A DNA stretch of 37,938 bases. It comes from Acidobacteriota bacterium. GTDB taxonomy: Bacteria; Acidobacteriota; UBA6911. Shown here one piece after another: positions 34,079-37,938 of this stretch. Both the position numbers and the translations under genes were made by a program. The notes beneath the pieces are model-generated. The model had not been told where the DNA came from. It saw only the letters and a list, made by a program, of their open reading frames with translations, and ran no database searches. Within the stretch, counting starts at the first letter, position 1; every line of letters starts with the position of its first letter. Location of the stretch: NCBI GenBank assembly GCA_012719355.1, contig JAAYAM010000095.1, positions 1-37,938 on the forward strand, written 5' to 3'.

Positions 34079-34161
34079 GTCCCTCCGGGACTCGGGTTTT
34101 TATTTTACGGACCTATCCCGGCACTTCCGTGCCGGGATATTCTCAATCGTCCCTATGGGAC
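34079..34161 (+). repeat. REP-like hairpin element, copy C (inverted)
   Basis: Three hairpins in a row: GTCCC-TCC-GGGAC (34079-34091), TATCCCGGCAC-TTCC-GTGCCGGGATA (34114-34139, perfect 11-bp stem) and GTCCC-TAT-GGGAC (34149-34161). Read on the minus strand the middle one is CCCGGCAC-GGAA-GTGCCGGG, the same core as copy A. It is thus inverted relative to copy B at 34303, about 140 bases away. Confidence 0.65.
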
Positions 34162-34302
34162 GGGGCCGTGGTTAATCGTTTCCCCGTCGCGGTATCGGCA
34201 ATGATCCGTTATTGGGATCGGGCGTCTTCCGGGACTGATCTGTGCGGGCGTTGATGGCCTGATGGATTACGCGGGTGTTTTTCCACAGGCATGGAAGAAC
34301 CA

Positions 34303-34394: not shown

Positions 34395-34619
34395 TCATTC
34401 ACGCTTGACGGCGGCTTCTGCGGCCTGAAATCCTATACGGCCGTGGGCTCCGTCGCAATACGGCTTGGTCTCTGATCCGCCGCAGCGGCACAAAGACAAT
34501 GTGGTTTTTCCCGCAAGATCGTAAATGTTGCCGTCTGCATCGACCAGTTCCAGCGTCCCTTCAGGAGCTTCGATGCGGTAGGGCCCGTTCTTTCTTACCG
34601 TTATCCTGACTGTCGCCAT
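34395..34619 (-). CDS. CDGSH iron-sulfur domain protein
   Basis: A 74-residue protein with the CDGSH-type cluster motif CRCGGSETKPYCDGAH, supplying three Cys and one His for a labile 2Fe-2S cluster (CDGAH replaces the canonical CDGSH). The N-terminal strands MATVRITVRKNGPYRIE precede it. There is no membrane anchor, so it is soluble. Roles of such proteins in bacteria include redox or cluster transfer but are not settled. AAGGAG lies seven bases upstream of the ATG. It lies downstream of the MoaF/SnoaL-like pair on the same strand but is separated by 161 bases with hairpins. Confidence 0.92.
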   Translation of the reverse strand: MATVRITVRKNGPYRIEAPEGTLELVDADGNIYDLAGKTTLSLCRCGGSETKPYCDGAHGRIGFQAAEAAVKRE

Positions 34620-34780: not shown

Positions 34781-35512
34781 TCAGACGAGGCTGTCGGGCC
34801 CGACCGGATCGTCCGGATACGTCTTTGAGAACCTCGCCGCCGGGACGCCTTCCGCCGATTGCATCGTATGCCATGCTGCCCTGTACTCGAGCTTCTTGAT
34901 CTTCCAGGCTTGCCCTTCCTTCACATACTCAGCTTCGCAGACACCGCCTTCGCGCCAGCGTGCGAGCCCTTCCCCGTGCAGGCGGGCCATGTCGATCAGA
35001 GAAGACTCTCCCTCCAACGGGGTTCCGGCTTTGATCGAGTATGGGAAACGCGCCTTTGCAGAGAGGCGGTCGGACGCAACCTCGATAGTCTCCTGCTGCT
35101 GATCGGGATCCAACTGCACCCCTGCGGCGAGTTCAGTCTTCCTGCCGGTGAGGGTGCGGCTGAGGTTGTCTACGTAGAGACGGCGGATTCCCCTCTCTTT
35201 CCCTGCGAAGAGACCGCCATTGAACGATACTTCACAGTCGTCGGTGAACAACCCGACTATTTCTTCATAGGCGCCTTGTTCCAGATGGTGTTCGTAGGTG
35301 TGGTGCAGGCTGCGTATCGCATTTGCATCCTGCAGGTGCGCGATCTGGCGTGAAAGCCGGTCGATCTGATCCTTGTCGCCGTTGTCGGTCCTCGGTTTGG
35401 CAACGCCTGCAACTGTCGAGGCGACAACCGCCGAAAGAGCTACTCCCGTCTTGCGGATAAAGGATCGGCGTTCGACCTCCGGCTTCGGATTCTTCTTCGA
35501 TTGTGTCTTCAT
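34781..35512 (-). CDS. Tat-exported protein of the NTF2/SnoaL-like fold
   Basis: A 243-residue protein with a twin-arginine signal (VERRSFIRKTGVALSAVVASTVAGVA) and then an NTF2-like domain about 60-200: ALHHTYEHHLEQGAYEEIVGLFTDDCEVSFNGG-type sequence (observed IRSLHHTYEHHLEQGAYE) and VEYVKEG-like C-terminal strands (AEYVKEGQAWKIKKLEYRA). The fold is used by cyclases, dehydratases, isomerases and as a binding scaffold. The Tat signal implies export of a folded, perhaps ligand-bound protein, which is unusual for this fold. The ATG at 35512 with AGGAG five bases upstream is preferred to a GTG at 35518. It starts 29 bases after the stop of the MoaF-like gene and belongs to its operon. Confidence 0.82.
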   Translation of the reverse strand: MKTQSKKNPKPEVERRSFIRKTGVALSAVVASTVAGVAKPRTDNGDKDQIDRLSRQIAHLQDANAIRSLHHTYEHHLEQGAYEEIVGLFTDDCEVSFNGGLFAGKERGIRRLYVDNLSRTLTGRKTELAAGVQLDPDQQQETIEVASDRLSAKARFPYSIKAGTPLEGESSLIDMARLHGEGLARWREGGVCEAEYVKEGQAWKIKKLEYRAAWHTMQSAEGVPAARFSKTYPDDPVGPDSLV

Positions 35513-35541
35513 AATCACTCCTGTCCAGTATGTTCAGTCGA

Positions 35542-37326
35542 CTACGCCAGTTTCGGTTCGATCAGCTTTCTCTTTTTCGGACCGAAGAATCTCTGCACGT
35601 CATATTTCCCGATAAGGCGGGCGATGGCTCCGACGAGGCCAAGATTCACACCTCTGGCTCCTCCGGAGAATCCGAAGCCGCAGTCGTGCATGATCTTGGT
35701 GTTGATCACGACGCAGGTTTCGGCGCCGTTGCAGGCCTCTTCGCACAGGTCGAAAATGTACACGCCATCGCGGAGTTTGACATAGATGCAGGGGGCGCAC
35801 CACTGCATCCCCATAGTCTGGTTTTCCGTAAATATCGTCCAGGAGGAAGAATGCGGCGTGGTGTACAGGTGCATGGAAGTCATGCTGTCAGAATAGGACC
35901 ATGAATACGCGTGTCCTACGAGTTCATCAGTGAAGCAGTGGCGCACGTACTTGGGAGCTTCCAGCCCTTTCATTTCGGCGGCGCCGAAAATGGCGTTGTA
36001 GGAGACTTCGTTCCCGTAATAGGGAGTGCCCATCTTTGATGTGATGCAGGTGGTGAGGCCGTTATTGAGGTCGAGCGCGATTTTCACACTCTTGCGGGGC
36101 CTGCTTCCCGAATGCAGATGAGCAAAAAACACCAGCTGATCGTCGGCTTCAAAGGCCCTGTAATCTTCTTCCCGCCATTGAGTCTCGCCTTCATTCTTCC
36201 ACCGGAGCTTTTTCGAGTCGATGACCCTGTAGTTGTAGACAGGCCCTCCATTGTCATAGCGCAGCGTGAATTCCTTACCAACCAGAAGATCGGTGAAGGG
36301 CATGCTGTTGCCTGCCATCATCTGCGGAGTGTCTTCCCTGCCTCCGAAAGACGTGGTGGTTTTTTCCGCGGCCTGATGGACCTCTTCTTCGGTCATATTC
36401 CTGAAAGTCCTGGCAGGACGGTAGGCCATTCTCTCGCCTTTCTGAGGGGTCCCGGGCTGCTGTTTGGGAGCCTTAGATGATGTCACGCTGAGCGATTTGC
36501 CATGATCGTTGAAGGGTTCAAGGTAGGCAAGCTGGCCTACGACCTCTCCGGTTCCCTTGTACATGTAGTACTCGAGCTCGTCTTTCTCATTGAAGCCGAG
36601 CCGCACGCCCGCCTGTTCCATGGTAAACAGGTCCATGGCGTACATCGTATGGATGCCCGAGAATTCGCATTCGGTCCTGTCGTAGATGAACAGGTTATCA
36701 TTTATCAAAACGTAATCCGATGGAGAGCAATAGCTGAGGTCGTCGACATGCCGTGTGAGTTCGACGAAATTTGAAGAGATGACCGAAGGATAGAAATCGA
36801 GCGTTTCAATGCCTGTGTCCTGGATCCAGTGGATGCCTTTCCCCTCGAGCCTGTTGGTGAGGTGGTGACGCTCCTTGGGCGGCTCCTTGCCGGTGTCGAC
36901 ATAGCCGAAATAGATCTGGCGCTGAACTTCCCTGTCATCGAGAACCGTACCTCCCGGGTCCTTGCCGCCGCAGAACCATACTTCGAAGACCGTAACGAGA
37001 TTCGTTTTGAGATCTAGGATTACGTTGTAGCCCTTTTCGGTCTTCGGGAGCATATGTGAGAAGACGACGAGCGGCTTCAGGACGAGGGCGCCGTAACCGG
37101 ATTCGACCGAAGCTCCGGATCCTTCCTTGAGAGTAAGCCTGTTCTTGCTTGTGAAGGTATAGTTGAGGACCGGGCCATCGTCGGTCACGATCTTGAGTGA
37201 TTTTCCCGCAAGGACGTCCGAATAGTCCGAGGCGCATTTGGGGCCGGCCGCGGCTGCGGCAAGTTTCTGGTCTATCTGCGCTTTGGTAAGTTTGGTGTAC
37301 TTGAAGCGATGCATTGGCTCATTCAT
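35542..37326 (-). CDS. Tandem MoaF-like protein (duplicated MoaF N and C domains)
   Basis: A 594-residue protein made of two copies of a MoaF-type lipocalin-like module. Copy 1 (about 40-275) begins LAGKSLKIVTDDGPVLNYTF; copy 2 (about 325-575) begins LVGKEFTLRYDNGGPVYNYR, each followed by a second half with HHLTNRLEGK/RHCFTDELVGHAYSW and MYAMDLF/YIFDLCEE. Ordinary MoaF proteins have a single such pair and about 250-300 residues. Despite the name, MoaF has no demonstrated catalytic role in molybdenum cofactor synthesis. There is no signal peptide, so this partner is cytoplasmic while the SnoaL-like protein downstream is exported. GGAG lies eight bases upstream of the ATG. A Cys-rich C-terminal stretch (CEEACNGAETC) may bind a metal. 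Confidence 0.85.
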   Translation of the reverse strand: MNEPMHRFKYTKLTKAQIDQKLAAAAAGPKCASDYSDVLAGKSLKIVTDDGPVLNYTFTSKNRLTLKEGSGASVESGYGALVLKPLVVFSHMLPKTEKGYNVILDLKTNLVTVFEVWFCGGKDPGGTVLDDREVQRQIYFGYVDTGKEPPKERHHLTNRLEGKGIHWIQDTGIETLDFYPSVISSNFVELTRHVDDLSYCSPSDYVLINDNLFIYDRTECEFSGIHTMYAMDLFTMEQAGVRLGFNEKDELEYYMYKGTGEVVGQLAYLEPFNDHGKSLSVTSSKAPKQQPGTPQKGERMAYRPARTFRNMTEEEVHQAAEKTTTSFGGREDTPQMMAGNSMPFTDLLVGKEFTLRYDNGGPVYNYRVIDSKKLRWKNEGETQWREEDYRAFEADDQLVFFAHLHSGSRPRKSVKIALDLNNGLTTCITSKMGTPYYGNEVSYNAIFGAAEMKGLEAPKYVRHCFTDELVGHAYSWSYSDSMTSMHLYTTPHSSSWTIFTENQTMGMQWCAPCIYVKLRDGVYIFDLCEEACNGAETCVVINTKIMHDCGFGFSGGARGVNLGLVGAIARLIGKYDVQRFFGPKKRKLIEPKLA

Positions 37327-37820: not shown

Positions 37821-37938
37821 TTGCAGGATTTTGAGGAGCTTTACCGCCGGTACGCAAAACAGCTGCTTCGATACCTGGTCTGTCTGAGCGGAGACAGGCA
37901 GTTGGCGGAAGAACTCCTTCAAGAAACCTTCTATCAGG
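37821..37938 (+). CDS. ECF-type RNA polymerase sigma factor (5' end only)
   Basis: The first 39 codons of an extracytoplasmic-function sigma-70 factor. FEELYRRYAKQLLRYLV followed by GDRQLAEELLQETFYQ is the start of region 2, which contacts core polymerase and the -10 element. The start is a TTG, chosen because AGGAGGTG lies seven bases upstream and an in-frame stop (37785) lies a little further up; a GTG at 37803 has no ribosome site. The gene runs off the window edge, so the class and any anti-sigma partner cannot be seen. Confidence 0.9.
   Translation, partial: MQDFEELYRRYAKQLLRYLVCLSGDRQLAEELLQETFYQ

Follow-up and report, generated by a model that had tools for sequence, protein, structure and literature searches.

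A gene pair on an acidobacterial contig raises the question of why a duplicated MoaF-like protein should be followed directly by a SnoaL-like protein with a twin-arginine (Tat) signal, and whether the two proteins act together. The window, as we call the whole stretch of DNA analyzed (37,938 nucleotides), is an entire contig of a 4.57-Mb draft genome. Both genes of the pair are preceded by a ribosome-binding-like sequence, and the AGGAG of the second gene sits just 5' of its ATG, 29 bases past the MoaF stop. The SnoaL open reading frame spans 34781-35518 on the minus strand, with the ATG at 35512 as the likely start and a GTG at 35518 as an alternative. The coordinates of the two genes and their 29-base spacing agree with the initial annotation. 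The features of the locus are as follows.

35542..37326, minus strand: tandem MoaF-like protein of 594 aa with two MoaF modules (open reading frame, Pfam, half-versus-half profiles, alignment; best Foldseek match, MoaF 4q51)
36412..37326, minus strand: N-terminal MoaF half, residues 1-305, diverged and without the HxY histidine (Pfam, profiles, alignment)
35542..36411, minus strand: C-terminal MoaF half, residues 306-594, canonical (passes both MoaF cut-offs in Pfam; alignment)
35513..35541, minus strand: 29-base intergenic gap with AGGAG ribosome-binding-like sequence (sequence)
34781..35512, minus strand: Tat-signal SnoaL_4/LdpA-like protein of the NTF2 family, 243 aa (open reading frame, Pfam, LdpA homology)
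35405..35512, minus strand: predicted twin-arginine signal region, RRSFIRK followed by a hydrophobic stretch (motif; TatC in the genome)
37821..37938, plus strand: beginning of an ECF-type sigma factor truncated at the contig end; a neighbor outside the conserved pair (Pfam)

The full 594-aa protein matched the MoaF model PF10703 in three stretches (90.1 bits against a gathering score of 23.3, E = 1e-25) as well as MoaF_C (PF17409, E = 1.9e-7), and its two modules exceed the size of a single one (about 270-330 aa). Scanned alone, the C-terminal half scored 72.3 bits with PF10703 and 31.5 bits with MoaF_C (cut-off 22.1), whereas the N-terminal half remained slightly below the PF10703 cut-off (22.0 bits against 23.3) and had no match to MoaF_C. 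Yet profile-profile comparison aligned the N-terminal with the C-terminal half over 254 columns (99.4% probability, E = 5.8e-22). The duplication, which had been proposed from the sequence at the outset, is therefore real, although of the halves scanned alone only the C-terminal one passed the Pfam cut-offs. The protein probably folds into four calycin-type barrels. Its AlphaFold model had a mean pLDDT of 55, with values of mostly about 75-90 in the first barrel of each half, and the top solved-structure match to this model in Foldseek was the crystal structure of MoaF from Burkholderia cenocepacia (4q51, E = 7.9e-9). Open frames of 885 aa at two homologous loci (L037 and L039) were considered as domain fusions and rejected, as these frames extend spuriously 5' of the true starts, MNVPMHRF and MNIPMHRF.

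The two halves differ at a position that characterizes the family. In an alignment that included the single MoaFs 4q51, those of Azoarcus and Rhizobium, and two further ones (L050 and L051), the HxY histidine (H486 equivalent) is kept in the C-terminal halves and in the single MoaFs but is replaced in the N-terminal halves; the duplication is therefore asymmetric. The C-terminal half, where the HxY and TxELxG positions of the MoaF family are present, has stayed canonical, while the N-terminal half has lost a residue that other MoaFs keep. The tandem protein departs from the family in having two modules per chain, a diverged N-terminal half, and multiple copies per genome. It may represent a MoaF pseudo-dimer within one chain, with a single functional pocket that would lie in the C-terminal half. 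At L050 (6508-8131), two MoaF-like genes of 290 and 248 aa adjoin each other, the second only weakly MoaF-like (E = 0.0027); together they may correspond to the tandem protein in split form.

Each of the 10 genomes sampled from this little-studied genus carries the tandem MoaF, with a maximum of four copies per genome; 50 relatives from outside it have none. The close relatives in the collection are MAGs under the labels Acidobacteria or Vicinamibacteria; their isolate names contain Zod_Metabat, and they probably come from Zodletone spring. The MoaF family as such was absent from 28 further genomes searched in the class, so within its class the tandem form is restricted to the genus, and among 396 genomes of the phylum only three others had a member of the family, one of them below the cut-off. 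Plasmids yielded only distant single MoaFs (about 25% identity). In the MoaF tree, the copies are old paralogs common to several species rather than recent within-genome copies. We conclude that the head-to-tail duplication of an ancestral MoaF predates the diversification of the genus.

The same genome carries a second pair on contig 185 (73% and 50% identical), and the search for genomes with the same arrangement found them. A SnoaL gene lies immediately downstream at 10 of the 16 tandem MoaF loci whose downstream flank is long enough, at spacings from overlap to about 60 bases and in varying surroundings. One further MoaF (L036) follows such a pair in the order MoaF-SnoaL-MoaF, and five tandem MoaFs have no SnoaL neighbor (L035, L037, L039, L041, and L044). 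One genome (G003) showed no SnoaL relative whatsoever, though a contig end truncates one of its MoaF loci. Conversely, all ten Tat-SnoaL copies of the subfamily are paired, while weaker relatives are unpaired. No third gene recurs generally beside the 10 paired loci. Distances among the MoaFs correlate with those among their SnoaL partners (Mantel r = 0.50, P = 0.003), to which species phylogeny may contribute in part. Functional coupling of MoaF and Tat-SnoaL is thus well supported. The suggestion that neither architecture is routine also stands: the tandem MoaF and its pairing with a Tat-SnoaL are unusual, and the pair is a real, recurrent, architecturally unusual version of known families.

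The partner was assigned to the NTF2/SnoaL fold family as initially proposed (SnoaL_4, PF13577, 49.8 bits against a gathering score of 24, E = 4.4e-13). Among solved structures, its closest relatives proved to be 8abu, 8abt, and 8abv (E about 1e-21 to 1e-22), the last of which is named LdpA in PMC11476836, and the homology is near full-length (8abu residues 10-201, E = 1.3e-22). LdpA belongs to the NTF2 superfamily and acts as a deformylase on lignin dimers (PMC12997858, PMC11323797). About 195 residues are homologous, including a C-terminal P-x-x-P-x-G-P-D tail, but the paired SnoaL proteins differ from this gamma-formaldehyde lyase in their Tat-type signal and in an extra conserved insert ahead of the WWEGG motif. 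GYY[IM]D, an H/Y-G segment, and YEN are common to LdpA and the unpaired single-domain copies of the genus (L087-L091), whereas the ten paired copies mostly lack them, with partial retention in one (L007); the lost positions are deduced from conservation and not from the published active site of LdpA. By these comparisons, the partner is an exported-type SnoaL_4 and a relative of LdpA in which most residues common to LdpA and the unpaired copies have been lost. The AlphaFold model of this protein was too poor for use (pLDDT 39).

The unpaired single-domain SnoaL_4 proteins belong to the same Pfam family, do not adjoin MoaF, and keep most of the residues shared with LdpA. In three genomes, such a gene adjoins an SDR-like gene (L089:6651-8161, L090:2357-3874, and L091:4227-5762), and these three could be real lyases.

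Taken together, we tentatively favor, at somewhat less than an even chance, the explanation that the pair is a genus-restricted module whose two functionally coupled parts handle a small molecule, probably an aromatic or hydrophobic one. The two folds make small-molecule handling a reasonable assumption, and an aromatic or hydrophobic ligand would agree with the nearest fold relatives, LdpA and the phenolic acid decarboxylases. The secreted SnoaL may serve as a binding protein or as an enzyme of changed chemistry, and would act outside the cytoplasmic membrane on the same ligand as MoaF or a related one. A more specific version, which we regard as possible but doubtful, is a previously undescribed two-protein small-molecule system across the inner membrane: a MoaF pseudo-dimer, fused and asymmetric, would work with a Tat-exported SnoaL without LdpA-type residues, and the system would have been amplified into several specificities in one acidobacterial genus.

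Where the two proteins reside bears directly on this explanation. The Tat motif of the window's SnoaL protein, RRSFIRK, falls below threshold in a generic Tat HMM (13.5 against 16.7 bits), but RRSF is kept in all 10 paired homologs and the genome encodes TatC (E = 9e-69), so that the predicted twin-arginine signal was borne out. No signal peptide was seen on the tandem MoaF of the window. However, the strict division into a cytoplasmic MoaF and an exported SnoaL that had been envisaged is not supported: a diverged tandem MoaF (L044:7848-9791, 39% identity), which adjoins an SDR-like gene, carries its own twin-arginine signal, so that the tandem protein is not always cytoplasmic. Alternatively, MoaF could fold with SnoaL in the cytoplasm and be exported as a hitchhiker on the Tat signal of its partner, which would place both proteins in the periplasm. 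The presence of TatC, the overlap or 1-base spacing of the genes at several loci, and the signal on a tandem MoaF that has no adjoining partner are consistent with such a complex, but four other solo tandem MoaFs (L035, L037, L039, and L041) have neither a signal nor an adjoining partner, and we consider this alternative rather unlikely.

A two-step enzyme pair acting on phenolics, in which the C-terminal MoaF half would be a phenolic-acid-decarboxylase-like lyase and SnoaL a re-tooled lyase or dehydratase, also seems rather unlikely to us. Far below 4q51, Foldseek listed phenolic acid decarboxylases, which have a calycin-type barrel, on one barrel only (probability 1.0, E about 6e-3); LdpA is itself a lyase of the NTF2 superfamily (PMC12997858), and a single MoaF of Azoarcus has an SDR oxidoreductase and a DUF1302/DUF1329/RND cluster as neighbors. 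Against this, the tandem MoaF does not hit the phenolic acid decarboxylase family in a Pfam listing up to E = 1, the paired SnoaL proteins lack most positions common to LdpA and the unpaired copies, and aromatic pathway genes do not recur beside the pair.

Control by an ECF sigma factor, making the pair an envelope stress or signalling unit, is very unlikely. The divergent gene noted initially does start at 37821 (sigma-70 region 2, 23.0 bits, slightly below the cut-off of 24, cut by the contig end), but its linkage to the pair was ruled out, as no such gene is conserved beside the other pair loci. No shared motif upstream of the pair was found, nor any known RNA immediately before the gene. 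Least probable of all is LdpA-type catabolism of lignin dimers with an exported gamma-formaldehyde lyase: the near full-length homology to LdpA stands, but since the RPE65-family lignostilbene dioxygenase (PF03055) is absent from all 10 genomes of the genus, the lignin pathway was rejected, and because most LdpA-shared residues are also lost in the ten paired copies, an LdpA function of the paired SnoaL appears unlikely.

MoaF is an annotated family, but in the literature searched, we found no established function for it and almost nothing relevant. The conserved, recurrently linked partner and the fused asymmetric duplication narrow the search for such a function, and the expansion of both fold families throughout the genus points to importance for the ecology of this lineage.

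The genus also encodes multi-domain SnoaL_4 proteins of 650-716 aa with signal-like N-termini (L092:5874-7853, L094:5022-7118, L097:5440-7587, L099:5071-7221, and L100:6098-8050). The first two contain three SnoaL_4 stretches each (E = 1e-76 or better), and the other three gave repeated partial matches. Within the window, a CDGSH iron-binding zinc finger protein is encoded just downstream of the pair (34395-34619, minus strand), and a match to the Acido-Lenti-1 RNA family lies at 34117-34162 on the plus strand (37.4 bits; gathering score, 37).
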